Part shown: piece by piece, positions 49,000 through 64,000 of the stretch
How the letters are laid out: the number at the start of each line of letters is the position of its first letter
How positions within the stretch are numbered: the stretch's first letter is position 1
From: a virus
Reading direction: 5' to 3' (one strand)
Length of the DNA stretch: 64,000 nt
IMG/VR virus record: IMGVR_UViG_3300025073_000817
Coordinates: 1-64,000 of that record
Notes under the pieces: generated by a model
Database searches by the model: none
The model's input: only the letters and a program-made list of their open reading frames with translations
What the model was told of the DNA's origin: nothing
Position numbers and translations under genes: made by a program

Positions 49000-49176
49000 A
49001 TGAATAAGTACACATTAGATAAATATATTCAGTTAGGAAAATCAGTTATACTCATAAAAGATAAAACCATTAGGCGTATAATGGGAATATATAAACACGA
49101 AAATAAAATATTGGGAGTTGTGGTTGAGGGAATATACGTATTACTTCCTATTGATGAAATAGAGATAATAAAATGA
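49000..49176 (+). CDS. MNxYT-family small protein 1 (58 aa)
   Basis: First gene of the tandem array, starting MNKYTLDKYIQLGKSVILI about 20 nt after the terminator of short RNA 2, with AAGGA upstream. Shows the family plan: MNxYT start, a basic helix, a G(K) turn, then short strands ending in an acidic hydrophobic tail (LPIDEIEIIK). Stop TGA overlaps the next ATG. The fold is probably a small SH3-like beta barrel (inference). Confidence 0.7.
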   Translation: MNKYTLDKYIQLGKSVILIKDKTIRRIMGIYKHENKILGVVVEGIYVLLPIDEIEIIK

Positions 49177-49355
49177 ATCTGTACACACTTAGGAAAACAT
49201 TTAAACCAGGAACTAAAGTTAGTTGTCCTTTAGATGATTGCGTTGGAACTGTTAAAGGAATTGTAGAGTTTTGGAAGAAAGTATGGCTAATAGAATTGGT
49301 TGAATATGATGATGATTTATTTAGCCCAGAAGATTTGGTGATAATCAATGAATGA
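49173..49355 (+). CDS. MNxYT-family small protein 2 (60 aa)
   Basis: Starts MNLYTLRKTFKPGTKVSCP inside the previous stop (ATGA). Ends FSPEDLVIINE. Its opening matches the member at 60,438 (MNLYTFKKTFKDGMKV), including Cys residues after the first strand (CPLDDCVG), a possible metal or disulfide pair. Confidence 0.75.
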   Translation: MNLYTLRKTFKPGTKVSCPLDDCVGTVKGIVEFWKKVWLIELVEYDDDLFSPEDLVIINE

Positions 49356-49542
49356 TTATGTGTTTAATAAATATCTTAAACCTGGACAAAAAGTAAGAAT
49401 AAAATCTGATAAAATAATGCCAAAATTAGATAGAATTCATATAATATCAAAAGTAGATAGATTTAATAATTCATATCTAACGATATGGCTTAAGGATAAT
49501 CCATTCCCCTGGTATAAAGATGAAATTGAGATAGTAATATGA
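49348..49542 (+). CDS. MNxYT-family small protein 3 (64 aa)
   Basis: Starts MNDYVFNKYLKPGQKVRIKS, overlapping the previous gene by 8 nt (ATGAATGA). Four short strands are predicted; ends WYKDEIEIVI. Highly basic N-terminal half, acidic end, as in other members. Confidence 0.75.
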   Translation: MNDYVFNKYLKPGQKVRIKSDKIMPKLDRIHIISKVDRFNNSYLTIWLKDNPFPWYKDEIEIVI

Positions 49543-49733
49543 ATGAATATACAATAAATAAGGCAATAAGAGAATTAATGACGGGAAGAAGAAAAATAAC
49601 TATTGAATTTGCTGGTTTTAAAGAATCCTTCTATTTAGAGGGAATAGAAATAACACATGATGAAATTGTTCTAAAATTAGATAGACCTACATTTAGTGGA
49701 ACTAGGACCTTTACGTTTAAAAAGTCGCCATGA
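49539..49733 (+). CDS. MNxYT-family small protein 4 (64 aa)
   Basis: Starts MNEYTINKAIRELMTGRRK at an ATGA junction. The helix after the motif is longer than usual, then strands (ITIEFAGFKESFYLEGIEI) and an atypical basic end (FTFKKSP) instead of the acidic tail. Confidence 0.7.
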   Translation: MNEYTINKAIRELMTGRRKITIEFAGFKESFYLEGIEITHDEIVLKLDRPTFSGTRTFTFKKSP

Positions 49734-49969
49734 ATGAATATACGATAAAAAAGAAATTTCCAATAGGGACTAAAATTAGATATTTTGAAGAACCATATAA
49801 TGACCATGAATCTGAAATAGAATATCACGGACATGTTATTGGTTATTTCAGAACAACACGAAATGAATTATTCATTAATGCAAGGGTATCTGCAATAGAT
49901 AGTAACAATAATCCAGTTAATTTAGAGTTTGGTGTTATTATTAATCCTGATCATGTTGAAATAATATGA
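49730..49969 (+). CDS. MNxYT-family small protein 5 (79 aa)
   Basis: Starts MNEYTIKKKFPIGTKIRYFE at an ATGA junction. The FPIGTK turn is the version of the G motif shared by most long members. An extended central loop (YNDHESEIEYHGH) precedes strands; ends INPDHVEII. Confidence 0.75.
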   Translation: MNEYTIKKKFPIGTKIRYFEEPYNDHESEIEYHGHVIGYFRTTRNELFINARVSAIDSNNNPVNLEFGVIINPDHVEII

Positions 49970-50181
49970 ACATATATACAGAATTTAAAGAACTTAGAAG
50001 AATATTTCCCAAAGGTAAATTTTTTAGAAATAAATACAATCGATGGGAGCATATCTGCATTATAGGTTATGAAATATTAGCAGATAAATGGTTTGCTAAA
50101 GGTAAGGTTATTAAAGAAAGTAATAATGAAGTAATCCATTGGTTAGATTTGAAACAAAAAAATAAATGGTTAAGAATATGA
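49966..50181 (+). CDS. MNxYT-family small protein 6 (71 aa)
   Basis: Starts MNIYTEFKELRRIFPKGKFF at an ATGA junction. The turn is FPKGKF in place of FPIGTK. Contains aromatic residues (NRWEHICIIGYEI, DKWFAKGKV) and ends NKWLRI, so the acidic tail is missing. Confidence 0.7.
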   Translation: MNIYTEFKELRRIFPKGKFFRNKYNRWEHICIIGYEILADKWFAKGKVIKESNNEVIHWLDLKQKNKWLRI

Positions 50182-50381
50182 ATATATATACATTTAATAA
50201 ATTAAAACATGGTGATAGATTTAGGGTTAAAGAGATGGCACAAACACGAGGGTTTGAAGGAAAAATATTTACAGTTGATATTAGAGCAGTAGATAAAATA
50301 GGCCCATACGTTAGAACTATTGAAATGAATAAATATAACAATATTCAATTAGTATTTTCAGCAGATGAAATAGAAAAATGA
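50178..50381 (+). CDS. MNxYT-family small protein 7 (67 aa)
   Basis: Starts MNIYTFNKLKHGDRFRVKE at an ATGA junction. This short KLKxGDR form of the opening is the same as in members at 63,398 and 63,698, 13 kb away, including at the DNA level. Ends VFSADEIEK. Confidence 0.75.
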   Translation: MNIYTFNKLKHGDRFRVKEMAQTRGFEGKIFTVDIRAVDKIGPYVRTIEMNKYNNIQLVFSADEIEK

Positions 50382-50653
50382 ATAGATACACTGCAAAAAA
50401 ATTACTAATTCAAAAATACCCTATTGGAGCTAAGCTAAGATTAAAAGAAGATCTTGATTTTTCTGATTATAGAAAAATATCACTATTTCCAGAAGATTGT
50501 TCCATAATTGATTATGTATTACCTATCCTTGAAGTTGAAGTATCATCAATTAGTATGACTAAAACCGTTAACGGTTACATAAAAGCTTCAACTTATGAAC
50601 ACGATTTCATATCAATTAATGATTTAGAAAAATATTATGATATAATCAAATGA
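50378..50653 (+). CDS. MNxYT-family small protein 8 (91 aa)
   Basis: Starts MNRYTAKKLLIQKYPIGAKL at an ATGA junction. Longest member of the first block, with an insertion after the first strand (DYRKISLFPEDCSIIDYVLP) and a typical end (ISINDLEKYYDIIK). Confidence 0.75.
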   Translation: MNRYTAKKLLIQKYPIGAKLRLKEDLDFSDYRKISLFPEDCSIIDYVLPILEVEVSSISMTKTVNGYIKASTYEHDFISINDLEKYYDIIK

Positions 50654-50859
50654 ATTATTATACCAAGTTAAAATATGCTAACAAGCATTTTCCTATAGGG
50701 TCAACTATTACTCAGACTTTTGATGAAAAACATATGGGAAAGATATCAAAATTCATATTAAAAGATCAATATCTAACGATATTTGTTGAAGGCAATAATC
50801 TGGAAGGAAGTATAACGGTAGATATTGAAAGATTAATTGAAGAAGATAAAAATGAATAA
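50650..50859 (+). CDS. MNxYT-family small protein 9 (69 aa)
   Basis: Starts MNYYTKLKYANKHFPIGSTI at an ATGA junction. Strands FILKDQYLTIFVEGNN and an acidic end ERLIEEDKNE. The next gene begins within its last codons. Confidence 0.75.
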   Translation: MNYYTKLKYANKHFPIGSTITQTFDEKHMGKISKFILKDQYLTIFVEGNNLEGSITVDIERLIEEDKNE

Positions 50860-51058
50860 TTATACCTTAATGAAATTTTTGAGGAAGAAATATCCAATAG
50901 ATAAAATTATTACAGAAGATGGACGAATATTAAAAGTAATTAAATGGGAAATAAGTAATTACGGGATATGGATAACATTTCTTATTCTAGATGGTCTTGA
51001 AAAAGGAAAATATTTAGTACAGATGTTAGATGAAGAAACAAGGACGGCTTATGAATAA
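50852..51058 (+). CDS. MNxYT-family small protein 10 (68 aa)
   Basis: Start MNNYTLMKFLRKKYPIDKII chosen over an upstream in-frame codon because it restores the family motif and the usual 8-nt overlap. The conserved Gly of the turn is replaced (YPIDKI). Ends DEETRTAYE. Confidence 0.7.
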   Translation: MNNYTLMKFLRKKYPIDKIITEDGRILKVIKWEISNYGIWITFLILDGLEKGKYLVQMLDEETRTAYE

Positions 51059-51272
51059 TTATACAAAACTAAAAGAAGCTAGAAAAGAATTCCCCATAGG
51101 TAGTAGATATATTTCTAAAATAACTTCTTCAGCGTCTATAGAAATAATAGGTCATAGTATTGGGCATAGTATTGCTGGAACTAAAATTGCAATAATACAC
51201 TTTGAAGATAAATCTGGAGCAAAATATTCTCAACCTATTGAGATATTTAGAAGTTGGTTTACTAATGAATAA
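51051..51272 (+). CDS. MNxYT-family small protein 11 (73 aa)
   Basis: Starts MNNYTKLKEARKEFPIGSRY, overlapping by 8 nt. Close paralogue of the member at 51,750: both share KEARKEFP, an IGHSI strand and an (I/L)-F-R motif near the end (PIEIFRSWF versus SIDLFRKAF). Contains an internal duplication IGHSIGHSI. Confidence 0.75.
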   Translation: MNNYTKLKEARKEFPIGSRYISKITSSASIEIIGHSIGHSIAGTKIAIIHFEDKSGAKYSQPIEIFRSWFTNE

Positions 51273-51477
51273 CTATACTCTACTTAAAGAAGTTAGATCA
51301 AAGTATCCTGTTGGTTCAAGGTTTAAGAGTCTTAGAACAAATAAGATATGCTACATCACTTTAGTAAGATATAGCACGGTATTTCGTAGAATTGTCATAC
51401 AGGCAGAGCCAGAAACTAATTGTAGTGAAATCAATACACCTTATCTATTCTATCCTGAAGAGTTAGAGCCATTATGA
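51265..51477 (+). CDS. MNxYT-family small protein 12 (70 aa)
   Basis: Starts MNNYTLLKEVRSKYPVGSRF, overlapping by 8 nt; a long upstream in-frame extension is rejected. Ends FYPEELEPL. Confidence 0.75.
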   Translation: MNNYTLLKEVRSKYPVGSRFKSLRTNKICYITLVRYSTVFRRIVIQAEPETNCSEINTPYLFYPEELEPL

Positions 51478-51753
51478 ACCTCTACACTAAATTCAAAAAC
51501 TTTAGAAAAACCTATCCAATAGGAACGAAACTTGTTCGGTACAATAATATTGGAGATACCCTAACTATTCTTTCTCATATTGCTCCTGATCACTCTAATG
51601 ACTACACCTGCCTTGCACTAGTAAAACTACATGGGATTAGAGTATGCAGCTTCTGAAATGTACCTAGATGTTCTCTATGAGAATCATGCATGTAAAATCA
51701 ATAAAAATGACTCCATATCAATCAAAATTGAAAATAAGTTGGTAGAAAAATGA
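51474..51753 (+). pseudogene. MNxYT-family member interrupted by a frameshift
   Basis: Starts MNLYTKFKNFRKTYPIGTKL at an ATGA junction and stops early at 51656 (60 aa, ending GIRVCSF). In the +1 frame an open stretch beginning near 51631 (MGLEYAASEMYLDVLYENHA) continues to a TGA that overlaps the next ATG, exactly as an intact family gene would. So one net base (+1 or -2) separates two halves of an ~92-aa protein. Decay, sequencing error or programmed frameshift are all possible. Confidence 0.6.
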
Positions 51754-51965
51754 ATAGCTACACCATTCTTAAAGAAGCTAGAAAAGAATTTCCCATGGGA
51801 AGTGTTAATGGTTATATCAAAGTAATCGGGCATTCAATAAGAGAGGGTTTCGAAAATGAAAATGTAGTGAAAATACATTTTAAAATTTTGAGTAATCTAA
51901 GTGATGGCTCAGAACATAGGTTATCTATAGATCTATTTAGAAAAGCATTCAGTTTAACATGTTGA
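51750..51965 (+). CDS. MNxYT-family small protein 14 (71 aa)
   Basis: Starts MNSYTILKEARKEFPMGSVN. Paralogue of the 51,051 member (shared GHSI and LFRKAF). It is the last tightly coupled gene of the first block: 14 nt separate it from the next. Confidence 0.75.
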   Translation: MNSYTILKEARKEFPMGSVNGYIKVIGHSIREGFENENVVKIHFKILSNLSDGSEHRLSIDLFRKAFSLTC

Positions 51966-51979
51966 TGCTGAGGTAGAAT

Positions 51980-52315
51980 ATGAATATCTACACTCTAATG
52001 AAGAGACTTCGTGAAATACTTCCAATCGGAACAATTCTGCATCCAAGAAGACATATAAAATTCTCTATCAATCATTCTGTGATGATTGTAGACTTCTACA
52101 TAATAACTATCCCATTCGTGACTGCAATCACAAGGAGTCTACCCACGCACGATGACTCTTCAGAGCCATTTAATGCAGACTACCTCATAAATCTTCTATG
52201 TTACTATTTTGAAACCCCCGATGATCTAGAACCCTTCATAAAATCCTACCACGTGAGTATAGGATATAATGTTTATGATTCTGTTTCAAGTAGTTATAGT
52301 TCTAAAATCAGATAA
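51980..52315 (+). CDS. MNxYT-family protein 15, longest member (111 aa)
   Basis: Starts MNIYTLMKRLREILPIGTIL with GAGGT upstream. After the family opening it contains hydrophobic strands (SVMIVDFYIITIPFVTAI) and an unusual C-terminus with no acidic tail (DSVSSSYSSKIR). May be fused to or read into unrelated sequence at its end. Terminates the first block. Confidence 0.65.
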   Translation: MNIYTLMKRLREILPIGTILHPRRHIKFSINHSVMIVDFYIITIPFVTAITRSLPTHDDSSEPFNADYLINLLCYYFETPDDLEPFIKSYHVSIGYNVYDSVSSSYSSKIR

Positions 52316-52784
52316 ATTTTTCGAATTTTTTCTACAACATGATCCTTTCTTATCTTCATTTCTAGATTAAAAATGAATTCAAAAATTTAAGAAACAAAAG
52401 TATAAGGTTGGTTATAGCGGGTATACCCTGCTTGTAGTTATACAGTTAATGTAAAGCCTATATTATCTCATAAGGTTTCTTAAGTTTCAAAAATTTCGAT
52501 TAAATCATTTCTTCGATTGAATCATCAAGAGGTTAATACTTCTAAGTTACTAAGAAATCATTTTTCGAACGAATCAACGAGGGGTCAATAGGTAGTATGG
52601 TAGTTCGTAAGTTACTAAGAAATCATTTTTATCGACTAATTCATCGGGTGGTCATAACAAGTAATAGTGCCTTACGCCCAAAATAACATGGGGTAGGGGG
52701 TGATTAGTGAAGTCAAATAACAACATAACAATCTAACTGTGGTGATAACCTAATGTGTGACAATCTAACAATGGAGGTGATAAC
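52316..52784 (+). other. 469-bp non-coding region with an RNA-like fold and direct repeats
   Basis: No supported gene. At 52383-52487 a 13-bp stem (AAATTTAAGAAAC with GTTTCTTAAGTTT, one wobble) encloses GTATAA/TTATAC and a small AGCGGG/CCCTGCT hairpin. At 52502, 52555 and 52620 three imperfect direct repeats begin AAATCATTT followed by TCGA and an AATCA-type core; TTACTAAG precedes the last two. The region separates two small-gene blocks and could be a regulatory leader, an iteron-like site or an RNA. Confidence 0.5.
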
Positions 52785-52961
52785 ATGTGGTGGGATGTAT
52801 TACCGTTCGTGTCGTTAGTGATGTTTCTATTTGCTATGGTGTGGGGTTTGCATGACATCATCAGAGGAAGCAGGGTAATAGGAGGAATTGTGTTGTTCTT
52901 TTCAACCTTTGGTGCGGTTGCTCATATGTGGGCAATCATAATGTTCGTACTAGGGAGGTGA
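52785..52961 (+). CDS. Small membrane protein (58 aa)
   Basis: A perfect GGAGGTGATAAC site precedes the ATG. Starts MWWDVLPFVSLVMFLFAMVW; two membrane helices (about 5-22 and 32-55) are joined by HDIIRGSR. The stop TGA is part of the next GGGAGGTGA ribosome site. Function unknown. Confidence 0.65.
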   Translation: MWWDVLPFVSLVMFLFAMVWGLHDIIRGSRVIGGIVLFFSTFGAVAHMWAIIMFVLGR

Positions 52962-52966
52962 TAAAA

Positions 52967-52990
52967 ATGATTAACAACTCAACAATGTAG
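52967..52990 (+). other. Seven-codon open frame behind a perfect ribosome site (leader peptide or remnant)
   Basis: ATG follows GGGAGGTGATAAAA and encodes MINNSTM then TAG. A similar 13-codon frame MINNIDAQLTRSS lies at 54,077-54,118 in the same context, and both run into the same intergenic repeat. Either they are truncated gene relics or translated leaders. Confidence 0.3.
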
Positions 52991-53044
52991 ATGCCTTAGT
53001 GTTAACTTATCAACATAACAATTTAACAAAAGAAAGGAATAATT

Positions 53045-53200: not shown

Positions 53201-53217
53201 GGAGGGAGGTGACATGT

Positions 53218-54297: not shown

Positions 54298-54513
54298 ATG
54301 AACTTGTATACATTAAGCCGATTAAAAAGAGGAGATTTTGTTCAATTAACAGATTTAATTGAACAAAAAGAATCACCTGACTATCAAGCGCCAGAAGTGG
54401 CAAAGGTTCTTTCAAATGATTTTGTAAAAAAGTTCATTTCATTTGAAACTAAGAGCCTGGTGGTGAGGTATAAATATAATTCACTTAGAAAAGAATTTAT
54501 TATCAAAAGGTGA
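54298..54513 (+). CDS. MNxYT-family small protein (71 aa)
   Basis: Starts MNLYTLSRLKRGDFVQLTD behind its own strong AGGAGGGTGAA site, unlike the coupled members of the first block. Contains the KRGD turn and strands SLVVRYKYNS; ends RKEFIIKR (basic rather than acidic). Confidence 0.75.
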   Translation: MNLYTLSRLKRGDFVQLTDLIEQKESPDYQAPEVAKVLSNDFVKKFISFETKSLVVRYKYNSLRKEFIIKR

Positions 54514-55367: not shown

Positions 55368-55370
55368 CAG

Positions 55371-55613
55371 ATGAACCTCTATTCACTACAAAAACTTAAG
55401 AAAGCAAACATCGTAAAGGTAACTGATGAACTTAATGATTTCAATGGAGATCCATATACTCACTCAATTGTGTATGTAGTTGTAAATAATGATCCTAAAA
55501 ATAAAAATATAACATTAGCTACTAATATTTACGATAAAGAGACAAGAACAACATTTGATTATAAAATATTCACTAACTATCCTAAAACCACACTTACTAA
55601 ACTTACTAACTAG
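55371..55613 (+). CDS. MNxYT-family small protein (80 aa)
   Basis: AGGAGGTGACAG precedes the ATG. Starts MNLYSLQKLKKANIVKVTD; the usual Gly of the turn is replaced by Asn. Strands HSIVYVVVNNDPKNKNITLA; Thr/Lys-rich end without the acidic tail. Confidence 0.7.
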   Translation: MNLYSLQKLKKANIVKVTDELNDFNGDPYTHSIVYVVVNNDPKNKNITLATNIYDKETRTTFDYKIFTNYPKTTLTKLTN

Positions 55614-55623: not shown

Positions 55624-55971
55624 ATGAATAAATATACAAGCAAGGAGTTAATGAAAGAATTAAAAGGTAAACTTAGATTTGGAACAATTGTGAGGCTGAC
55701 CCAAACGTATGGGCGATTATCCAAAGATGATTTATTAGATGTTAAAAAAGTATATGAATCTAGATCACACAGGGGTGTTGATTCTAAGTTACTTCAAATA
55801 GATCCAATTGATGGTGGTTTTTACGATGAGGAAGTTAATATTAATGATGTAGAGATTGTAATGGATGCACCTAAAATCAAATGTCCAAACTGCAATCATG
55901 TATTTCACTTTGATATTTATAAATATGAAAAACTATTAGAAAAATTTATGAAAAAACTTAGAGGCTGGTAA
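55624..55971 (+). CDS. MNxYT-family protein with C-terminal zinc-ribbon-like extension (115 aa)
   Basis: AGGAGGTGACAA precedes the ATG. Starts MNKYTSKELMKELKGKLRFG; family core to about residue 85 (VNINDVEIVM is the typical end of other members). It then extends with IKCPNCNHVFHFDIY, a CxxC and H.FH metal-binding-like knuckle, and a basic helix. Shows the family can acquire accessory domains. Confidence 0.7.
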   Translation: MNKYTSKELMKELKGKLRFGTIVRLTQTYGRLSKDDLLDVKKVYESRSHRGVDSKLLQIDPIDGGFYDEEVNINDVEIVMDAPKIKCPNCNHVFHFDIYKYEKLLEKFMKKLRGW

Positions 55972-56091: not shown

Positions 56092-57228
56092 ATGGACAAG
56101 AAAACAAAGGCAATGATTGCTCTGAGGGCATCTATTGCTGATCAATGGGAGCCATTCTACACATGCGCTTTAGGTTCGGCGTGTGATGTAGATTGGGCAA
56201 GGCTTTCAGGAGCCTATGCTTGTGTCTATCATAAAGGAAATGGTAGATTTCAAATCTTTGTCAATGAGGACATGGTAGATGAACCACTAGATGTCCTCCA
56301 GTATGAAGTCAAACATGAACTATGGCATGTACTGTTGGGGCATCTAACTAACAGATTCCATTCTGTTCTGTTTGCTGATAGTGAAAGGGCAAATGTTGCA
56401 CAAGACATAGCCCTGAATTGTTGTATTCAAATTCCAGATAAAATAGCAAAGGAAAGACAAACAGCAGAAGTATGGAAAGTAGATCCAGATAAAACAACAG
56501 AGTTCTACTATCATGCACTAGAAGGAAATACAAAACTTCCTAATCTTAAAGAAATAACATTAGAAGAACTAATGCAAATGATTAAAAATGGCGAAAAAGT
56601 AAACTTTAAATTCATTGATACCATCAAAGGCAAACCTCTTGAAGAACACGAAATGCAAGAGGTGATGAATAGGATCGGCCAGTTGGCAGGAGCAATGCCT
56701 GGTGATTTATTGAGGGCATTGAATCGTGAACGTGGTATCAACTTCCAAATGATGGAAAAGATGATGCGTAACATGGTTGATCCTGATGGCAACAAAGGGA
56801 TCAAGAAAACATGGGCGTATGCTAATCGTAGAAATCCAACATTTAGAGGCAAAGTAAGGAGAATGATGGCCAGGATCTTCCTTATCCTGGATTCATCAGG
56901 ATCAATTACACAGCAACAACTCAACGTATTTGCTGGAACTTTGCACAGTCTGTCTGAATACTGCAAAATATTTGTGGCAGTAACGGATGCTCAGGTGCAT
57001 GAAAAATTCTGGTTCAAAGGTCACTTGTCTAAGGTGACGGGAGGAGGTGGCACGGTATTTCACGACGCATTCAAATTAGCAGAGGAAATGAGGTTTACTA
57101 ACATTGCAATTCTAACAGACGGGTATTGCGACTACCCGGACAAGACCACGGCAAAGCAGGTCTTGTGGGGCATTATTGAGAACAAAGAATTCAAGCCGAA
57201 GTTCGGCAATGTCATTCACCTTAAATAA
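56092..57228 (+). CDS. Metallopeptidase-like (DUF2201) plus von Willebrand A domain protein (378 aa)
   Basis: Residues 1-160 resemble the DUF2201 putative metallopeptidase domain, with HELWHVLLGH (75-84) as an HExxH zinc motif in a long helix (DVLQYEVKHELWH). Residues of about 255-375 are a VWA domain with the MIDAS-like DSSGS (267-271), a later Thr/Gly-rich GGGGT loop and an ILTDGYCD strand. This two-part arrangement is normally encoded next to a MoxR ATPase, and here the next gene is one. May deliver substrates to the ATPase as an adaptor; whether the protease site is active is unknown. Confidence 0.8.
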   Translation: MDKKTKAMIALRASIADQWEPFYTCALGSACDVDWARLSGAYACVYHKGNGRFQIFVNEDMVDEPLDVLQYEVKHELWHVLLGHLTNRFHSVLFADSERANVAQDIALNCCIQIPDKIAKERQTAEVWKVDPDKTTEFYYHALEGNTKLPNLKEITLEELMQMIKNGEKVNFKFIDTIKGKPLEEHEMQEVMNRIGQLAGAMPGDLLRALNRERGINFQMMEKMMRNMVDPDGNKGIKKTWAYANRRNPTFRGKVRRMMARIFLILDSSGSITQQQLNVFAGTLHSLSEYCKIFVAVTDAQVHEKFWFKGHLSKVTGGGGTVFHDAFKLAEEMRFTNIAILTDGYCDYPDKTTAKQVLWGIIENKEFKPKFGNVIHLK

Positions 57229-57246
57229 GAAAGGGAGGAAATGATT

Positions 57247-58254
57247 ATGGAACTTTACAAGAGTTTGGTTACGGTAAAGGAAATGGTGAAGGCAATGGAC
57301 ATGTGTGCCAATGCTGGTATGACTCCAGTATTTGAGGGAGAGTCAGGCATTGGTAAGACTCAACAGATCAGGGCTTATGCTAATGATCGAAAGATGGATC
57401 TGGTTGAGTTGAATTGTGCAACTCTATTTGTGGAAGATTTTGGCGCAATCAGAGATGATGGCAACTTTGTAAAGTTCAGGCTGAATGCTATCTTTGATAT
57501 CAAGAGGCCAACTGTGGTGTTCTATGATGAATTCAGCAGAGCCCGTGGGGATTTACGTAACGCATTAATGAGTGCCATAAACGAGAACATGATTTATGGT
57601 ACAAAGCTCAGTGGCAAAATCCAGAATGTTGTTGCAATGAACCCTCCAACTCAGGACTATGGTGACACTGATGATCCGTTTGTGGATCTAGCAACCACAC
57701 GGAGATACTCGATATTCAGTGTCATTCACAAGGCACAGGACTGGCTTGATTGGGCAGTTGAAAACAAGGTACATGAACAAGTAATCAGATTCATAAGGAA
57801 AAACGAAGTGATGTTGGTGTACGGGCAAGCGTGCCCAAGACAATGGGTTAAGATGAGTAACGTCTTAAAGATTGATGGAATTGAGGGTGTTAGGATGGTT
57901 GCTAATGGTTGTTTGGGCATAGCAGCACGGCATTTTATCGAACACCTCATGGAGAGGAAGGTGATAACAGTCGATGATGTGTTAAAGAGGTACGCCGGGG
58001 TAAGGGATGAAGTAATTAAGGATAAGCAGCTTCAACTGGCTCTTGGTTCTGAAATTGCAGCCAAGAGGTTGGAGAAAACGTACAAAACAAACTATCTGGC
58101 ATTCATCATGGACCTGTCTGAAGAGATCAGATATCAGGTTGTTAAGTTAATTGTGGAACAGAAAACAGATGAGGAAGAAAGGGACATGGTGTATGGATGG
58201 CATGACAGCAATGCTGCTTTGAAAGAGTTCATGGAAAAACAATCAGATTATTAA
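57247..58254 (+). CDS. MoxR-like AAA+ ATPase (335 aa)
   Basis: Start MELYKSLVTVKEMVKAMD chosen for spacing to GGGAGG (an ATG two codons earlier is too close). Walker A is GESGIGKT (31-38), Walker B VVFYDEF (90-96), a sensor-1-like VVAMNPP lies near 122-128, and an arginine-finger region TTRRYSIF follows near 144-151. The MoxR group forms hexamers that act with VWA partners in maturation or remodelling of protein complexes. Encoded 18 bp after the VWA gene in one transcript; strand, spacing and family pairing support a functional unit. Confidence 0.85.
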   Translation: MELYKSLVTVKEMVKAMDMCANAGMTPVFEGESGIGKTQQIRAYANDRKMDLVELNCATLFVEDFGAIRDDGNFVKFRLNAIFDIKRPTVVFYDEFSRARGDLRNALMSAINENMIYGTKLSGKIQNVVAMNPPTQDYGDTDDPFVDLATTRRYSIFSVIHKAQDWLDWAVENKVHEQVIRFIRKNEVMLVYGQACPRQWVKMSNVLKIDGIEGVRMVANGCLGIAARHFIEHLMERKVITVDDVLKRYAGVRDEVIKDKQLQLALGSEIAAKRLEKTYKTNYLAFIMDLSEEIRYQVVKLIVEQKTDEEERDMVYGWHDSNAALKEFMEKQSDY

Positions 58255-58301: not shown

Positions 58302-58523
58302 TTGAACCAGTATACCTTTAACAAAGAATTTAAAGTAGGAACTAGAATCTATCATCAAAATCATGGAGAAGTTTTTATATCTGAAATCCTATATTCACAC
58401 TTTAACAATAACATAGTATTTGGGCTAAAGTTAAATAGCCTAATAAATGGTAAACGAGTAATGTTAAGGACTCTTAGAAAATTTTCAGAAGAATATAACA
58501 ATGGGGATTTCTATAAATTATGA
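58302..58523 (+). CDS. MNxYT-family small protein, TTG start (73 aa)
   Basis: TTG at 58302 follows GGAGGTGATAAAT with good spacing and restores the family opening MNQYTFNKEFKVGTRIYHQN. Strands EVFISEILYS and NNNIVFGLKL follow; ends EEYNNGDFYKL. Overlaps the next gene by ATGA. Confidence 0.7.
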   Translation: MNQYTFNKEFKVGTRIYHQNHGEVFISEILYSHFNNNIVFGLKLNSLINGKRVMLRTLRKFSEEYNNGDFYKL

Positions 58524-58741
58524 ACATGTATACACTGAAAAAAGAATATCCGATTGGAACCATATTTAGCTCACATCTTTTTAACAAATTAACCATAACT
58601 AATTACACCTATAGTGACCAATTAAAAACCATTTTAGTCCACATATCTTTAGATAATGGTGAACGTTATGGGCATTATGAACTTAATCACTTTCTTCATA
58701 ATATTGGTAAAATATGGGATAAAGGAGAAAGAAAATGGTAG
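58520..58741 (+). CDS. MNxYT-family small protein (73 aa)
   Basis: Starts MNMYTLKKEYPIGTIFSSH at an ATGA junction. Strands KLTITNYTYS and KTILVHISLDNG; basic end (WDKGERKW) that carries the next gene's GGAG site. Confidence 0.75.
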   Translation: MNMYTLKKEYPIGTIFSSHLFNKLTITNYTYSDQLKTILVHISLDNGERYGHYELNHFLHNIGKIWDKGERKW

Positions 58742-59468: not shown

Positions 59469-59493
59469 TTGGGGAGGACAACAAACTCCCCAA
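59469..59493 (+). repeat. Hairpin before an MNxYT gene
   Basis: TTGGGGAG (59469-59476) pairs perfectly with CTCCCCAA (59486-59493); the stem buries the only GGGGAGG site upstream of the gene at 59,502, which could restrict its translation. Confidence 0.45.
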
Positions 59494-59501
59494 TACAAAC
59501 T

Positions 59502-59711
59502 ATGAATGAATATGTTAAGATAAAATTGTTTAGACCAGGAACTAAAGTAACACCGACAAAAAAATTCAGAGGTCTTTATAACAAAATGGATCTATCAGAT
59601 GTATATGTAGTTAAATCATTCTTAAAAGAAGTTGATCATGTAATTTTATGTGGTGGAAAATATGATGAAGAACGATGGCATATAGATCATTTGGAGGTAG
59701 TAAATGAATAA
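59502..59711 (+). CDS. MNxYT-family small protein (69 aa)
   Basis: Starts MNEYVKIKLFRPGTKVTPTK; its only upstream ribosome site lies in a hairpin 9-33 nt away. Strands DVYVVKSF and DHVILCGGKY; ends WHIDHLEVVNE, a typical family end, which also contains the GGAGG of the next gene. Confidence 0.7.
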   Translation: MNEYVKIKLFRPGTKVTPTKKFRGLYNKMDLSDVYVVKSFLKEVDHVILCGGKYDEERWHIDHLEVVNE

Positions 59712-59940
59712 TTATATTGCAAGAAAAATATTGAAACCAGGAGTTAAAGTAAGAATCAAAAAAGAAGCCGGAATAATTTATGAAGAAATAACATCTAAAG
59801 AAGTGTTAACCATAACAGAGGTTTTAGTTTCGGAAGATAATAAGGTATTCATATCATTGATTAAAGGAAATATAAATGACCTTGATGAACTTAATTACTC
59901 ATTTAAATTAGAAGAAATTGAGGAGGTGATAAATGGATAA
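59704..59940 (+). CDS. MNxYT-family small protein (78 aa)
   Basis: Starts MNNYIARKILKPGVKVRIKK after TTGGAGGTAA, overlapping by 8 nt. Closest in opening to the 49,348 member (NKYLKPGQKVRIKS). Ends LEEIEEVING, with the next GGAGGTGATAA site inside its last codons. Confidence 0.75.
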   Translation: MNNYIARKILKPGVKVRIKKEAGIIYEEITSKEVLTITEVLVSEDNKVFISLIKGNINDLDELNYSFKLEEIEEVING

Positions 59941-60229
59941 GTATAACCAGACAAAAAGATTTCATAAAATGCAATTGGGCGAAGTAGTAGGTCTTTTTCT
60001 AAAAATTGAAAACGAAGCTAATGATGGATGGGGTGATGCAATTTCACATTATTATGGATATACTTCTCCTAGTCATATCCGAAATAAGAACATTGAAATT
60101 CTTAAACTAGATCTAAAAAGATTTACTAAATGGACTCGTAAGAAAATCAAAGAAGAAATAGAGCGTAGAAGGATTAGTTACAAATGGCTATATAACAATG
60201 GTGTTTCATATCTTATAGAGGAGGAATGA
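59933..60229 (+). CDS. Divergent MNxYT-like protein (98 aa)
   Basis: GGAGGTGATAA precedes the ATG. Starts MDKYNQTKRFHKMQLGEVVG, a degenerate family opening, but the rest is helical and basic (FTKWTRKKIKEEIERRRIS), so the resemblance may be limited to the first residues. Function unknown. Confidence 0.6.
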   Translation: MDKYNQTKRFHKMQLGEVVGLFLKIENEANDGWGDAISHYYGYTSPSHIRNKNIEILKLDLKRFTKWTRKKIKEEIERRRISYKWLYNNGVSYLIEEE

Positions 60230-60231
60230 TT

Positions 60232-60441
60232 ATGGCATACACGAGTGTTGATTTCAAAACAAAGAAAGCGTTGAAAGAAGCTGTGGTTCAAGGTAGGAAG
60301 ATTTCTATCTATAACCACTCAGGAATATTTCCAACCAAAGACAATGGAATTGAATTCGTTGAAGGTCCACACTATCCTAAACCTCACACATGGTATGCTC
60401 AAGTAACAATGAAAGACGGGGTGATAGTAAAAGTAAAATGA
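60232..60441 (+). CDS. Small conserved-type phage protein (69 aa)
   Basis: Start MAYTSVDFKTKKALKEAVV chosen at 8 nt from GAGGAGG (an ATG two codons earlier is too close). The combination of VDFKTKKALKEAV, EGPHYPKPHTWYAQV and a C-terminal DGVIVKVK is a pattern I recognise from uncharacterised small phage proteins. It interrupts the MNxYT series. Function unknown. Confidence 0.7.
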   Translation: MAYTSVDFKTKKALKEAVVQGRKISIYNHSGIFPTKDNGIEFVEGPHYPKPHTWYAQVTMKDGVIVKVK

Positions 60442-60656
60442 ATCTATACACATTTAAAAAGACATTTAAAGATGGAATGAAAGTTAAACTACTTAGATGT
60501 GATAACAAAAACTGTGGTCTACGAAATGACTGTGTTGGGTCTATTGTAGAAATCGGTGATATTTCAACTCGAAATGGACCGAGTTTTTGGATTGAGGGTG
60601 AATATGCAGAGTGTGAAGTAACATGTGACTTTGAAGATTTGGAGGTAATAAAATGA
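60438..60656 (+). CDS. MNxYT-family small protein, Cys-rich (72 aa)
   Basis: Starts MNLYTFKKTFKDGMKVKLL at an ATGA junction. Cysteines in RCDNKNCGLRNDCVG and AECEVTC could bind zinc. Ends FEDLEVIK. The frame-restored pseudogene at 63,166 is its closest relative in the window (same Cys spacing style). Confidence 0.75.
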   Translation: MNLYTFKKTFKDGMKVKLLRCDNKNCGLRNDCVGSIVEIGDISTRNGPSFWIEGEYAECEVTCDFEDLEVIK

Positions 60657-60874
60657 AGGAAGAAATAAAGAAATTAATGCTTGAGTATCCAATTGGCACC
60701 ATTGTTGATTTTGCCGACGAAGGCGAAGAGATTGATCGATGGATTATTATTGAACATAATCTAGACAATAGCCCTGGGGAACTTGATCTTGGGCTAACAT
60801 ACGAAAATGATCCTAGCGAAACTCCAGACTTTTATGCATTCCCTAAAGACGTAACAATTATTAAGAAACCTTAA
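60653..60874 (+). CDS. MNxYT-related small protein lacking the first motif (73 aa)
   Basis: TTGGAGGTAATAAA precedes the ATG at an ATGA junction. Starts MKEEIKKLMLEYPIGTIVDF: the YPIGT turn and following strands are family-like, but the MNxYT opening is gone. Strongly acidic (DEGEEIDRW); ends KDVTIIKKP. Confidence 0.7.
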   Translation: MKEEIKKLMLEYPIGTIVDFADEGEEIDRWIIIEHNLDNSPGELDLGLTYENDPSETPDFYAFPKDVTIIKKP

Positions 60875-60886
60875 AGAGATTATAAA

Positions 60887-61111
60887 ATGAATCTATATCA
60901 ACTCAGGAGATACATAGGTAAACAATTCAAAATGAAAAATTTAGCTAATAGACCAGGGACTATAGGTACTTATTCAAATATTTGGCCCGGAATCTATATT
61001 GTAAAAGATGCTTATTACAGTAATAGAAGGATGTGTAATGTAATAGAATTCATAGATTCAAGTGATAATGAGGAATATATTATAAAACTTAAATTTGTAG
61101 AGTTTCTGTAA
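60887..61111 (+). CDS. MNxYT-family small protein (74 aa)
   Basis: Starts MNLYQLRRYIGKQFKMKNL with AAAGAGAT upstream. Strands GIYIVKDAYYS and CNVIEFIDS; ends IIKLKFVEFL. Last gene of the third block. Confidence 0.7.
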   Translation: MNLYQLRRYIGKQFKMKNLANRPGTIGTYSNIWPGIYIVKDAYYSNRRMCNVIEFIDSSDNEEYIIKLKFVEFL

Positions 61112-61403
61112 CCATCATAAACCAGTCAACTCTAATTACTAATCTTTAGTCTAAATTAGAATATGCTTTAACATTCCGACACGGTGTAGACTGCTCTCGC
61201 TCTATACTCGCGATTTCATGATCTTCCATTTCACGCGCGGATTTGCGAACTCGCTGAACCTACCGAAGTCCATGAATCTAATCACGCCATTCACAACAAT
61301 CACCAAAAACGAAACATTGCATTTTTTGCTTGCATCGGAGCCCTCGCCATGTTATACTGTACCCGTAACAATATAACAGGGACTTAGGACATAAGGAGGT
61401 CTC
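61112..61403 (+). other. 292-bp intergenic region with a promoter
   Basis: No gene seen. Composition shifts from AT-rich to GC-richer around 61,180, marking the edge of a distinct block. A promoter lies at 61330-61358 and an AAGGAGG site before 61,404. Confidence 0.5.
61330..61358 (+). promoter_or_regulatory. Promoter of the GC-richer block (1)
   Basis: TTGCAT (61330-61335), 17-nt spacer, TATACT (61353-61358). Confidence 0.6.
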
Positions 61404-61586
61404 ATGATTTCAAAGAGCACAAAGAAGTGGAATACACTGGTCAACCGGATGCTCAAAACTGGACTTGGCCAGGAAGGCCATCAGATTCGGATGGATGAAG
61501 TTGAGAACCTAGAAAGGGAAATGTTCAGAAATCAGTATCCGTTCAGGTCAGTACCCTCAGTAAAAAGGGGTCGCAAGAAAGCCTAA
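61404..61586 (+). CDS. Small basic hypothetical protein (60 aa)
   Basis: AAGGAGG precedes the ATG. Starts MISKSTKKWNTLVNRMLKTG; helical and Lys/Arg-rich, ending VKRGRKKA. Has its own promoter and is followed by another promoter 9 nt later. Possibly a DNA-binding or inhibitory peptide; no family recognised. Confidence 0.65.
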   Translation: MISKSTKKWNTLVNRMLKTGLGQEGHQIRMDEVENLEREMFRNQYPFRSVPSVKRGRKKA

Positions 61587-61594
61587 TTATTTAC

Positions 61595-61623
61595 TTGCAT
61601 CGGCAAGCTCGACGTGTTATAGT
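61595..61623 (+). promoter_or_regulatory. Promoter of the GC-richer block (2)
   Basis: TTGCAT (61595-61600), 17-nt spacer, TATAGT (61618-61623). TTGCATCGG matches the start of promoter (1) 265 bp upstream, suggesting duplication. Confidence 0.65.
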
Positions 61624-61656
61624 GGGAATAATAATACAGTAGAGGAGGTGATGAGA

Positions 61657-62061
61657 GTGTCAGATTTCCCGAGTCCCACACTAGCCGTTGAAATGGCACT
61701 GAAGCAATTCGGCGGATGGTTCAGGATGTTCGGGAGGTCATCTGGAACAGTAGATATCCAGGATATCACATATCGGGAAGGTGAAGTGGGATTCTGGGTT
61801 GAATGGTCCAAGGTCAAGATGGCCGAACAGTTGGATGTAGATGTAGAGGAGGCCTGCCAAGAATTTGTGAAAGCCTATGGCAGGAAAATGCCGAAGGCCG
61901 AACTAAGGGAGAGGATGGTTCGCGCTCTCCTTAAGAACGGATGGAAACCCGATTCGGTAAAAGTCATCAAAGAAATGCGAACCATTCAGAAGTCCAAGCG
62001 GGAGGATATATCATGTCTAAGAAAAAGTCTACGAAAAAAGATGTCAAGAAGGAAGTCGTGA
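61657..62061 (+). CDS. Hypothetical protein (134 aa), GTG start
   Basis: GTG at 61657 lies 8 nt after GAGGAGG; an ATG two codons earlier is too close but in frame. Starts MSDFPSPTLAVEMALKQFGG. The N-terminal half is beta-rich (TVDIQDITYREGEVGFWVEW), the C-terminal half helical and basic (AELRERMVRALLKNGWKPDSV; end KKMSRRKS). Overlaps the next gene by 49 nt in another frame. No family recognised. Confidence 0.6.
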   Translation: MSDFPSPTLAVEMALKQFGGWFRMFGRSSGTVDIQDITYREGEVGFWVEWSKVKMAEQLDVDVEEACQEFVKAYGRKMPKAELRERMVRALLKNGWKPDSVKVIKEMRTIQKSKREDISCLRKSLRKKMSRRKS

Positions 62062-62624
62062 AAGTCGGATGTGCCGCCAAGATCAAGAGAGGCGACAACC
62101 AGCACGAGAATAAAACCATTCGGAATATGTTCTCGGCCATCCTGAAGAAGCATTCGGATCTGAGCCTCGTGGAGAACTCGTGGGGAGCCCTTCAGGTGAA
62201 GCGAAACGGGGACGTCCTGTTCTCGGCCAGGCGTGGCGGCGACATGATCATCAGCCGTCCAATGTTCACCGGCACCGGAAAGAATCGTGAGCGCCTGTTC
62301 AAGCATCCGGGCAATCACTACGATTACCTCTCCTCGGTTCCACTCAACAAGGTGACCCTGGCGATGCTCGAGGACCGCGTGAAGGACCCGAAGTCCACGA
62401 AGGACTACTACGCTGAGATCTACAAGGGGCGTGAGGCTGAGGCTGGCTGGAACATGAGGAAAGCCGCCGCCGCCAAGAGGGTCGGTGAGGTTGTCAAGGA
62501 AGCCAAGGGAAAGGTCTCCAAGAAGACAGTGGAAAAGATCGTTGCTAAGAGGAAGGCCACCGAACTGAAGAGGACACCGGTCCGCAAGGCTCTCGCTCAG
62601 GTCGCAGCAGAAGCCTCAGCGTAA
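62013..62624 (+). CDS. Lys-rich basic protein (203 aa)
   Basis: Start MSKKKSTKKDVKKEVVKVG behind GGGAGGAT; an upstream extension in frame is rejected. A Lys-rich N-terminus leads to a compact middle (VENSWGALQVKRNGDVLFSARRGGDMIISRP) and a long basic helical C-terminus (KKTVEKIVAKRKATELKRTPVRK). Overall plan (basic linker, small beta core, coiled basic tail) resembles the 241-aa protein at 58,735. GC-rich. Probably nucleic-acid binding; unproven. Confidence 0.65.
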   Translation: MSKKKSTKKDVKKEVVKVGCAAKIKRGDNQHENKTIRNMFSAILKKHSDLSLVENSWGALQVKRNGDVLFSARRGGDMIISRPMFTGTGKNRERLFKHPGNHYDYLSSVPLNKVTLAMLEDRVKDPKSTKDYYAEIYKGREAEAGWNMRKAAAAKRVGEVVKEAKGKVSKKTVEKIVAKRKATELKRTPVRKALAQVAAEASA

Positions 62625-62633
62625 CCAACTTCA

Positions 62634-62663
62634 GGGAGGGTCACCAAGACCCTCCCTTTTTTT
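62634..62663 (+). terminator. Intrinsic terminator closing the GC-richer block
   Basis: GGGAGGGTC, loop ACCAA, GACCCTCCC followed by TTTTTTT: a textbook Rho-independent terminator ten bases after the 203-aa gene. Confidence 0.9.
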
Positions 62664-62729
62664 GACTTTATTCCATCAGGATATCAAAGTTTTTTATTTC
62701 CTTTAGTCAGAGTTTTATGTGGGTGTGAG

Positions 62730-62918
62730 ATGAATAAATACAGTTGGGAAAAAGGTCGTAATGAACTTGCAAAAACTCTAAAAGAAAAACTTTCACCAGA
62801 AGAAATTATGGTGATAGTAGAAACTGTTTTTGATTTATTAGATGAAGAGGAACATGAACAGGTTTTTTCAAAAGAAATTCTAGATCTCTTAGATGGTAAT
62901 TCAAAATATTTCCGGTAA
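62730..62918 (+). CDS. Small acidic helical protein with MN-type start (62 aa)
   Basis: Starts MNKYSWEKGRNELAKTLKE. The opening is family-like, but the body is helical and acidic (EEIMVIVETVFDLLDEEEHE). GGGTGTGAG upstream is a weak site. It may be an unrelated protein sharing the initiation segment. Confidence 0.6.
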   Translation: MNKYSWEKGRNELAKTLKEKLSPEEIMVIVETVFDLLDEEEHEQVFSKEILDLLDGNSKYFR

Positions 62919-62971
62919 TAGTTTGCCCTTACTACTATTCCAAGACTAGTCGTAAGAGGATCTGAAATATC

Positions 62972-63169
62972 ATGAATTTATACTGTTTTCGTAAATTGAA
63001 AGTAGGTGATGAAATAGAAATAGCCGACAATTTATTTAAAGGATTATTTCTTCCTGAAAGAATTACCATAATAAAATTACGAAAAGATTCATCTGGGAAC
63101 GATTGTGCGGATATTGATTATGGGCTATATGTTTTACCTTATCAAATCGTTAGAAAGATAGAAAAATGA
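62972..63169 (+). CDS. MNxYT-family small protein (65 aa)
   Basis: Starts MNLYCFRKLKVGDEIEIAD; AGAGG lies upstream. The end LPYQIVRKIEK is nearly shared with the 63,398 member (ICKIEK). ATGA junction with the next (broken) gene. Confidence 0.75.
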   Translation: MNLYCFRKLKVGDEIEIADNLFKGLFLPERITIIKLRKDSSGNDCADIDYGLYVLPYQIVRKIEK

Positions 63170-63401
63170 ATTTATATACTTTCAAAAAAGGAGCTGTAAC
63201 CTGTAAGAAACTAAAGATGATCGCATGTAAGCATGTAAGGCAGATTCTCCTTGTCATAACCGTTGTCTTAGCGAAACACATGAAATTGTAGAACTAAAAT
63301 TTAATAGTAATAGAAATGAATATGAAATTAATTTTATTAACAGTTGCACTTCGAGGGTTTGCCAAGCTAGATATGAAGATGAATTTGAGTTTGTAGAATG
63401 A
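63166..63401 (+). pseudogene. MNxYT-family member broken by an 8-bp tandem duplication
   Basis: Starts MNLYTFKKGAVTCKKLKMIA at an ATGA junction but runs into an unrelated frame and stops at 63291. The sequence GCATGTAAGCATGTAA near 63,223-63,238 is an exact tandem duplication of 8 nt. Removing one copy restores an open frame of 75 codons to a TGA overlapping the next ATG, with a Cys-rich body (CKADSPCHNRC) and the family end (EDEFEFVE). Inactive, or phase-variable by slippage. Confidence 0.75.
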
Positions 63402-63601
63402 ATCTATATACATTCAAAAAATTGAAAGTAGGTGATAGAATTCTTATTGATTTTCCAATGAGAAAAACTCCAATGGAATGTGAAGTAGTAGAAGCAGTAA
63501 CCACAGACAGTGATTGGATAAAAACATTTATTGTTAATTCAAGAAATAAAGAACCTTTGAATGTCCCAAGAGTAGCAATAATCTGTAAGATAGAAAAATG
63601 A
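63398..63601 (+). CDS. MNxYT-family small protein (67 aa)
   Basis: Starts MNLYTFKKLKVGDRILIDF, the clearest form of the family opening, at an ATGA junction with the broken gene. Strands CEVVEAVTTDSDWIKTFIV and VPRVAIICKIEK. Confidence 0.8.
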   Translation: MNLYTFKKLKVGDRILIDFPMRKTPMECEVVEAVTTDSDWIKTFIVNSRNKEPLNVPRVAIICKIEK

Positions 63602-63636
63602 ATATATGTTTTCAAAGGGCTAATAGCGAGGGTTAA
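63598..63636 (+). pseudogene. Truncated MNxYT stub 1
   Basis: ATG overlaps the previous stop and encodes MNICFQRANSEG then TAA. Nearly identical DNA (TTTCAAAGGGCTAAT) occurs in stub 2. A 5' remnant of a family gene. Confidence 0.5.
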
Positions 63637-63649
63637 ATGGGTTATTGAG

Positions 63650-63691
63650 ATGAATATATATTGCTTTCAAAGGGCTAATGGTAGTAGTTAA
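63650..63691 (+). pseudogene. Truncated MNxYT stub 2
   Basis: MNIYCFQRANGSS then TAA. Tandem duplicate of stub 1, 52 nt downstream, preserving the family opening at DNA level. Confidence 0.5.
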
Positions 63692-63697
63692 ATTGAC

Positions 63698-63904
63698 ATG
63701 AATCTATATACTTTCAATAAATTGAAACCAGGAGATAGAATTAGACTTCGCGAAGGAATGGATCATAGAGATTGTTCTACAATCCAAGTTGTGAAGAAGC
63801 GTTGGGGTAATAGTAAATTATGGATAGTAACAAGTGATAGCGAAACTAGAAATCCAAAACTCACTCATATATCTAATGTTGAATGTAAAATAGAAGAATC
63901 ATGA
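63698..63904 (+). CDS. MNxYT-family small protein (68 aa)
   Basis: Starts MNLYTFNKLKPGDRIRLRE; strands TIQVVKKRW and KLWIVTSDSE; ends VECKIEES. Opening DNA is almost identical to the 50,178 and 63,398 members. ATGA junction with the next gene. Confidence 0.8.
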   Translation: MNLYTFNKLKPGDRIRLREGMDHRDCSTIQVVKKRWGNSKLWIVTSDSETRNPKLTHISNVECKIEES

Positions 63905-64000
63905 AATTTTCAGAATTAAAAAAACTTAAGAAAGGAAATAGAATTCTTGTTAATAAATCATATTTCTCAGAGGTTCATAAAGTTAAAGATCCTGTTTCAA
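63901..64000 (+). CDS. MNxYT-related small protein, cut by window edge
   Basis: Starts MKFSELKKLKKGNRILVNKS, keeping the KLKxGxRI part of the opening but not MNxYT; the frame is open to the edge. The array continues beyond the window. Confidence 0.6.
   Translation, partial: MKFSELKKLKKGNRILVNKSYFSEVHKVKDPVS

Follow-up and report, generated by a model that had tools for sequence, protein, structure and literature searches.

A repertoire of small paralogous genes with predicted SH3-like barrels in a tailed phage

Although phage genomes are compact, about 8% of a map of about 140 kb is devoted in one phage to paralogs of a single 70-residue domain. This raises the question of what these genes encode and which function could be served by so many diverged copies. 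We analyzed them in a stretch of 64,000 nucleotides (positions 1 to 64,000 of the IMG/VR virus record IMGVR_UViG_3300025073_000817), referred to below as the window. An earlier note, made from the sequence alone, had described about thirty tandem paralogous small genes running from 49.0 kb to its right edge.

Extent and layout of the array

The window is part of a phage contig of 114,591 bp, which a second contig of 35 kb meets at both ends to give a circular map of about 140.4 kb. The two overlap by 126 bp and, at the opposite end, by 9,155 bp, both with 100% identity, and so come from one and the same phage; the single-copy relative on the second contig, first attributed to another phage, was therefore rejected as such. 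Between 49,000 and 64,000, 27 open reading frames of 58 to 115 codons belong to the family (Table 1). With 22 copies at 64–79 kb and 3 at 113.5–114.1 kb, the count on the window contig rises to 52, and 1 further copy is present on the adjoining contig. A profile built from the family retrieved 45 copies at E ≤ 1e-3 from the 114.6-kb contig, and an all-against-all phmmer comparison yielded a paralog cluster of 41 members in the genome of this phage. The array is thus larger than had been described and runs on past the window edge. It is not continuous, however: the only near-gapless run, of 15 genes, covers 49.0–52.3 kb, and unrelated genes interrupt the array beyond it (e.g., a VWA-like gene at 56.1 kb and an AAA ATPase at 57.2 kb).

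The described packing by short overlaps was also observed. Of the 52 copies, 16 share 4 nt (ATGA) with the preceding family gene, and 6 share 8 nt (ATGAATGA). The strings of genes overlapping through ATGA suggest translational coupling. The array genes lie on the same strand and side as the replication genes, away from the structural module, and from this position and direction we assume that they are expressed early. Scans for promoters and terminators stayed at background level, no Rfam RNA was found in the window, and no tRNA was found either.

Table 1. Positions of the family copies in the window, with their strand, the length of the product and individual features. Rows are family members unless stated otherwise.
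Position	Strand	Length (aa)	Remarks
49000..49176	+	58	First gene of the array
49173..49355	+	60	Upstream overlap 4 nt
49348..49542	+	64	Predicted helix and five-stranded SH3-like barrel (AlphaFold, pLDDT 83.9)
49539..49733	+	64	
49730..49969	+	79	
49966..50181	+	71	Divergent subfamily, KxxRxxxPxG
50178..50381	+	67	
50378..50653	+	91	
50650..50859	+	69	
50852..51058	+	68	Upstream overlap 8 nt
51051..51272	+	73	Divergent subfamily; predicted SH3-like (AlphaFold, pLDDT 91.3)
51265..51477	+	70	
51474..51656	+	60	Frameshift truncation possible (frame +1 ORF runs on to 51753)
51750..51965	+	71	44% identity to paralog 51051
51980..52315	+	111	Member by N-terminus; body score not above shuffles
54298..54513	+	71	
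55371..55613	+	80	
55624..55971	+	115	CPNCNHVFH C-terminal extension (possible zinc site)
58302..58523	+	73	TTG start
58520..58741	+	73	
59502..59711	+	69	
59704..59940	+	78	
60438..60656	+	72	5 Cys; weak DUF4314 match (E = 0.0017), under cut-off
60653..60874	+		Divergent relative without MNxYT (E = 0.0042 against full profile)
60887..61111	+	74	
62972..63169	+	65	
63166..63400	+		Cys-rich copy, frameshifted, probably dead
63398..63601	+	67	
63698..63904	+	68	Array runs on beyond the window edge to about 79 kb of the contig

A protein family with a conserved opening

The common opening reads MN-x-Y-[T]-x-x-K-(n)-G-x-K/R and the C-terminal end is usually [E/D]-[I/V/L]-E; the shared opening and the usual acidic end, both pointed out earlier, were confirmed across the 27 in-window reading frames. 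That N2 and Y4 never vary is in part an effect of how the copies were picked, as MNxY was the search pattern. N-x-Y-T is also kept, however, in 4 copies with non-ATG starts, which were located by profile or reading frame, and is missing from two weak relatives only. Divergence is as strong as had been stated, the mean pairwise identity among members being 24%; their net charge ranges from −5 to +13 (mean +1.8), and a dozen of them are acidic. Among the copies with at least three cysteines, one is intact in the window (60438–60656) and the other three lie outside it. This bears out the cysteine clusters that had been reported, but the "zinc knuckle" of 55624–55971 comes down to a single CPNCNHVFH motif with a sub-threshold zinc-ribbon match (E = 0.0067).

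We considered the possibility that unrelated proteins share only their first residues, these being a translation signal. Residues 14 onward, taken alone, were homologous at p ≤ 0.05 in 31 of 48 members and residues 23 onward in 25 of 52, the body homology being individually non-significant for about one third of the members. The codons at N2, T5 and K8 matched genome usage, and the rarer TAC was used for tyrosine more often, not less. The homology of residues 14 onward together with genome-like codon usage at MNxYT is evidence against a signal acting in translation or at the DNA level, as are the first 20 codons, in which dN was well below dS and synonymous sites were near saturation in most pairs while the amino acids were kept. 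Sequence comparison therefore shows a true protein family. That the motif is instead an element of translation initiation or a promoter, acting as nucleic acid on unrelated small proteins, might be imagined from its location at the extreme 5' end and from the many copies that overlap the preceding gene, but these findings contradict it and make it hardly credible. Six MNxY proteins have no detectable barrel, versus about 0.24 expected by chance; the N-terminal helix may be reusable on other bodies.

Predicted fold

AlphaFold models of two members of different subfamilies (pLDDT 83.9 and 91.3) consist of an N-terminal helix followed by a five-stranded SH3-like barrel. The top Foldseek matches were SH3-like barrels (eS4, PetP, PsaE, KIN, EF-P and a chromo-barrel; TMq up to 0.64), and a PDB sequence-profile search gave weak matches that include SPT5, PetP, PsaE, CarS, NusG and eS4; neither search produced a match for the family at E ≤ 1e-3. 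The models and both searches agree with the common SH3-like barrel foreseen in the earlier note, as a predicted fold. The resemblance to the KOW/SH3-like superfamily (PsaE, PetP, eS4, the KOW domains of NusG/SPT5, domain I of EF-P, CarS) is one of predicted topology, at the level of the fold and without a significant sequence match. Neither Pfam nor PHROGs assigned the proteins to a family with confidence. Three members showed weak matches to DUF4314 (PF14192) in their first strands (best E = 0.0017), the best score of 18.7 bits lying below the curated gathering threshold of 27. None of the members, and none of their relatives, is functionally characterized.

A remotely homologous set in Acinetobacter phages

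The number of paralogs is far beyond chance: the 41-member cluster contrasts with clusters of at most 2 (phmmer) in three phages whose structural genes are related to those of the window phage (terminases 37–39% identical). The family was absent from the terminase relatives searched, and no other carriers of MNxYT were found by pattern scans of viral contigs, subfamily searches, one genome-collection scan and tblastn against phage records.

Small SH3-like paralogs are present in seven culturable Acinetobacter phages (AM24, Mithridates, Herod, Bestia, P577, YMC13/03/R2096 and Ab15). A profile search of six genomes, with a profile that came from the phage with most copies, counted 15–26 of them per genome. 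Alignment of the window family with this set by hhalign gave 90.5% (E 1.3e-6, 63 columns), versus at most 0.7% for 60 column-shuffles and 0.3% for the reversed control. Judged from these profiles, the Acinetobacter set is remotely homologous to the window family and makes up another repertoire, whose copy number varies. The profile of the Acinetobacter set (A7) retrieved no member from the window phage at E ≤ 0.01. Both sets are made of single-domain proteins, mostly of 60–100 aa in the AM24-like set, clustered in one genome region. Unlike the window family, most AM24-like proteins start directly in the barrel (VGDKVEV...GDVAKV), without the MNxYT helix, and they carry an NPxW motif that is absent from the window family; host and phage are also unrelated. 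A description of such a phage family was not found in the searched literature.

Selection and copy turnover

In all pairs tested dN was lower than dS (dN/dS < 1), and dN/dS gave no indication of positive selection. N-terminal dN was mostly 0.2–0.4, versus 0.4–1.0 in the body, showing that the family is under purifying selection, with tighter constraint on the helix than on the barrel. Codons 1 to 20 of the closest pair were near-identical even synonymously (dS 0.10, versus 1.03 in the body), which hints at recombination through the conserved start. The similarity of neighboring copies did not significantly exceed that of distant ones (Mantel p = 0.09), so a recent expansion is unsupported for the window phage itself. 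At least one copy is frameshifted (63166) and two have short or truncated starts (66784 and 78336). As to the proposal of a fast-evolving, expandable repertoire, the 15–26 copies in Acinetobacter phages speak for its expandable character, whereas dN/dS below 1 in the pairs tested gives no support to adaptive fast evolution. A diversity-generating retroelement was rejected, as the reverse transcriptase domain PF00078 was absent from the 114.6-kb contig, to which the search was confined and in which controls matched.

Proposed role and alternatives

In view of the remotely homologous Acinetobacter set, the window array has the appearance of a repertoire of small binding domains that can be expanded, with the helix constrained and the barrel variable. 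The reading that we favor, and that we judge to be an even call, is that about 50 separate SH3-like barrel proteins make up a lineage-specific repertoire, which arose in a tailed phage as genes duplicated and diverged, and whose members serve as host-directed binding modules with different targets. Repeated duplication and divergence would have generated these separately encoded barrels, in each of which the constrained helix (MNxYTxxK) would lead into a diverged five-strand barrel. Barrels with different surfaces would bind distinct host macromolecules and block or redirect them, new binders being supplied by duplication while failed copies decay or get lost. The spread of net charge is expected if members have different targets. 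The likeliest use of the array would be host takeover or counter-defence. Small viral counter-defence genes are known to multiply within a genome: AcrID1 has paralogs in Sulfolobus rudiviruses, with 26 of 35 homologs in four viruses (PMC11065993), and tifA of T4, a small counter-defence gene, undergoes segmental amplification (PMC9391042). AcrID1, unlike the window family, is a proven anti-CRISPR, a different protein and present in fewer copies per genome.

Alternatively, the proteins could be nucleic-acid binders of the KOW/Sm-like kind, acting on DNA or RNA of the phage as a coat or as gene regulators or RNA-binding factors, rather than host-directed effectors. The nearest solved folds include the nucleic-acid- or ribosome-associated eS4, EF-P, SPT5, NusG and Cren7, the mean net charge is mildly positive, and the copy on the adjoining contig lies between SbcD-like and SbcC-like genes (names given from a reading of the sequence rather than from a database match). 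Yet the dozen acidic members fit this poorly, the fold class also holds protein-binding barrels (PsaE, PetP, Tudor), and about 50 diverged copies are not obviously needed for one nucleic-acid function; we consider it unlikely, though worth keeping in mind. Also unlikely is a modular library of binders, one tiny SH3-like scaffold in dozens of gene copies, in which the shared helix docks to a common partner and a variable barrel face picks the target, so that duplication creates new counter-defence specificities, on a scaffold expanded at least twice (window phage and AM24-like phages).

The copies might also result from a duplication ratchet, arising by recombination between repeated starts and being kept as a tolerated, short, well-folded domain with little individual function. 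Frameshifted and truncated copies, and the contrast in dS within the closest pair, would fit such a process. Most copies are intact, however, and with about 24% mean identity and dN below dS this means that reading frames were preserved over long divergence, which makes a ratchet rather improbable.

The T4 internal proteins, which carry a capsid targeting sequence, combine a conserved N-terminal stretch with variable bodies, and this likeness suggests that the family could be virion-packaged, injected effectors, MNxYTxxK being a packaging or targeting helix on variable cargo. The N-terminal helix is indeed the most conserved part and occurs on the six barrel-less proteins, and the genome encodes a Mu-like prohead protease (39206–40285). 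In T4, however, the N-terminus is cleaved at a defined site, whereas that of the family is part of the predicted fold, conserved G13 and K15 belonging to the start of the barrel. A cleavage motif was not seen: the first 20 columns lack a conserved acidic site, although a T4-type acidic site may not be the specificity of this protease. Since the genes also lie on the replication side, packaging appears very unlikely.

Returning to host-directed binding modules, the two repertoires suggest that some phages maintain a set of small binding proteins that can be enlarged and is probably directed at the host. As the AM24-like phages have been isolated and sequenced, what was an uncultured curiosity becomes a testable system; copy number varies between their related genomes, so single members can be linked to phenotypes. 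In these genomes the set is annotated merely as hypothetical proteins.

An array of 52 small paralogs

Every ATG-(Asn/Asp)-x-Tyr ORF right of 48.9 kb was enumerated and cross-checked with the family profile. We removed 11 ORFs for being frameshifted, truncated or unlike the barrel and included four copies that start at codons other than ATG, which gave 52 family members. The earlier note had seen about thirty tandem paralogs at 49-64 kb; the window indeed holds 27, and the array continues with 22 members at 64-79 kb and 3 at 113.5-114.1 kb. One further copy lies on the adjoining contig 3300025121_000677, between genes that read as putative SbcD-like and SbcC-like. The described tight packing applied to part of the array, the overlap with the preceding family gene being 4 nt in 16 of the 52 and 8 nt in 6. 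Members average 72 aa, with a mean pairwise identity of 24%, and occupy 8.1% of the circular map. It is a genuine array, in which a known fold class has undergone an unusually large expansion specific to this lineage.

MNxYT proteins form one family

All-against-all phmmer comparison of all genes gave a single 41-member cluster in this phage, and clusters of at most 2 members in three phages with common capsid, terminase or replication genes. The body of the proteins was assessed by cutting the first 13 residues and scoring each member with the profile of the others against 300 shuffles of itself. Under these conditions, 31 of the 48 core members scored above 95% or more of their shuffles (2.4 expected), and 25 of all 52 members were still significant after removal of 22 residues; about one third were individually not significant by body alone. 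Judged by sequence, the MNxYT proteins are therefore one protein family, as had been proposed.

We considered the possibility that MNxYT is a nucleic-acid signal, such as a translation signal placed on unrelated bodies. Synonymous codons at N2, T5 and K8 fitted genome usage (p 0.90, 0.41 and 0.91) and Tyr4 shifted towards the rarer TAC (p 0.018), indicating conservation of the motif at the protein and not the DNA level. In the paralog pairs tested, dN was lower than dS; dN was mostly 0.2-0.4 in the first 20 codons and 0.4-1.0 in the rest of the gene, with synonymous sites near saturation in both parts in most pairs. The first 20 codons are under stronger constraint than the rest. Together with the homology of the bodies, these data leave the signal explanation a negligible chance. 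In the youngest pair, 65408/65895 (members are named by start coordinate), the first 20 codons were nearly identical, synonymous sites included, which hints at recombination by way of the start they share.

Six MNxY proteins had no detectable barrel, versus 0.24 expected from residue frequencies, though two of them, 87865 and 88278, are alike and the independent events are thus fewer than six. They could be explained by fusion, by decay of former copies, or by a helix that serves as a signal separable from the barrel. A diversity-generating retroelement was rejected, since a search of the 114.6-kb contig brought up no reverse transcriptase.

A predicted SH3-like barrel

The AlphaFold model of member 49348, from a 39-row family alignment, had a pLDDT of 83.9 and showed a helix (3-9) followed by strands 15-18, 30-39, 43-48, 51-56 and 60-62. 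That of 51051, whose subfamily barely scores against other members by body sequence, reached 91.3 with the same order of elements plus a short helix before the last strand; since its alignment included other family members, the two models depend partly on each other. Foldseek matched the first to the SH3-like barrels of eS4, PetP, PsaE, a cyanobacterial electron-transport subunit (6khi_S) and KIN, and the second to those of Tudor, EF-P domain I, chromo-barrel, eS4 and Cren7. Independently, SPT5, PetP, PsaE, CarS, NusG and eS4 were among the weak matches when the PDB was searched with a sequence-only profile. Each match was individually non-significant, and the assignment rests on the agreement between methods, which supports the SH3-like fold predicted earlier. 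In the models, N2 plausibly caps the helix and the acidic 'EIE' end plausibly forms the last strand. Similarity to DUF4314 was below threshold.

A remotely homologous repertoire in Acinetobacter phages

Among the matches listed when 2.9 million viral contigs and 50,697 phage records were searched by pattern, profile and tblastn, and GTDB by one pattern scan, there was no further carrier of the MNxYT form. Following a weak lead in Acinetobacter phages, we came upon an unexpected second set of small paralogs in phage Mithridates, with clusters of 20, 4 and 2 members and the pattern VGDKVEV...GDVAKV...NPxW. When a profile of 14 Mithridates paralogs (A7) was aligned to that of the window family, the match spanned 63 columns with a probability of 90.5%; none of 60 column-shuffled versions exceeded 0.7%, and reversing the profile gave 0.3%. 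The comparison of copy number in related phages, suggested by the earlier note, was possible in this homologous set: at E<=0.01, Mithridates had 26 copies, AM24 22, Bestia 19, P577 18, Ab15 17 and Herod 15, a spread that may be inflated because the profile was built from Mithridates. The Acinetobacter phage papers searched for paralogs held no mention of the set. Sets of small SH3-like barrels are therefore found in two phage groups that are unrelated to each other, and one of these can be cultured. The parallel repertoire in isolate phages is newly found, and the weight of the finding lies in its scale, the isolated lineage and the testability gained through culturable Acinetobacter phages.

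Possible function of the barrels

The array has a history of duplication, divergence under purifying selection and decay of some copies; in the homologous set, copy number differs between related phages. By prediction, the proteins combine a constrained helix with a variable barrel. Each barrel could be a small binding module, different members binding different host macromolecules soon after infection; we give such host-directed binding an even chance. Small counter-defence genes are known to multiply in other viruses, as AcrID1 in rudiviruses (PMC11065993) and tifA in T4 under toxIN selection (PMC9391042). Nip of SPbeta, a counter-defence protein, has predicted SH3-like domains (PMC11984713), but is larger than the window proteins and resembles them in these domains. 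Nucleic-acid roles of the barrels seem unlikely, and a mostly non-adaptive duplication ratchet somewhat more so. That the proteins are effectors packaged in the virion is improbable.

The phage genome

The IMG/VR record (114,591 bp, the window being its bases 1-64,000) overlaps contig 3300025121_000677 (35,078 bp) by 126 bp at its right end (114466-114591) and 9,155 bp at its left end (1-9155), both at 100% identity, so that together they close into a circle of 140,388 bp, broken in assembly within a TnpB-type gene repeat. In the left 45 kb, and mostly on the minus strand, are the genes for the terminase, the portal, the major head protein, the prohead protease and other structural proteins, those of the tail having a J-like central fibre protein among them. 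Plus-strand genes run rightwards from 45.5 kb, with a 5'-3' exonuclease and a dCTP-deaminase-like protein, then the small-gene region, followed by topoisomerase II, NAD-dependent ligase, helicases, DnaB, primase, DnaE-type DNA polymerase and thymidylate synthase.

Features of the phage contigs and of phage Mithridates
Feature	Location	Remark
DUF488-N3 family protein	48398-48787 (+)	directly upstream of array
Densest stretch of array	49.0-52.3 kb	15 consecutive genes
VWA-like (DUF2201) gene and adjoining AAA ATPase gene	56092-57228 (+); 57241-58254 (+)	inserted in small-gene region; resembling a MoxR/VWA pair
MNxY proteins without detectable barrel	62730 (window); 74215, 87865, 88278, 89076, 111336 (contig)	
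TnsA-like nuclease with NUMOD3 motif	37085-38023 (-)	within capsid gene cluster; likely homing endonuclease
129-bp inverted copy (95%) of contig 98878-99006	39065-39193 (window)	isolated within structural module; resembling a lone element end
Sequence at end of TnpB gene (97,720-98,904)	contig 98878-99006	
DnaE-type DNA polymerase, two pieces	contig 107861-110593; 112623-113510	outside window, about 2 kb apart; apparently intron, intein or gene fission
Protein with long Asp/Asn-rich tail	3300025121_000677, 2690-4066	adjoins apparent RecA-like gene; possibly ssDNA-binding protein
Mithridates SH3-like paralog clusters	MW316731.1, 74.7-95.4 kb and 5.5-6.3 kb	all annotated 'hypothetical protein'

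The closest terminases in virus contigs were at most 39% identical, and 41-60 kb, the region tested, had no nucleotide match to phage records, which makes this an isolated lineage; a 21,134-bp stretch of contig 3300009285_010022 was identical to the window contig. Distant matches were to Brevibacillus and Moorella phages, and these, with ribosome sites of GGAGG type, suggest a host among the Bacillota.
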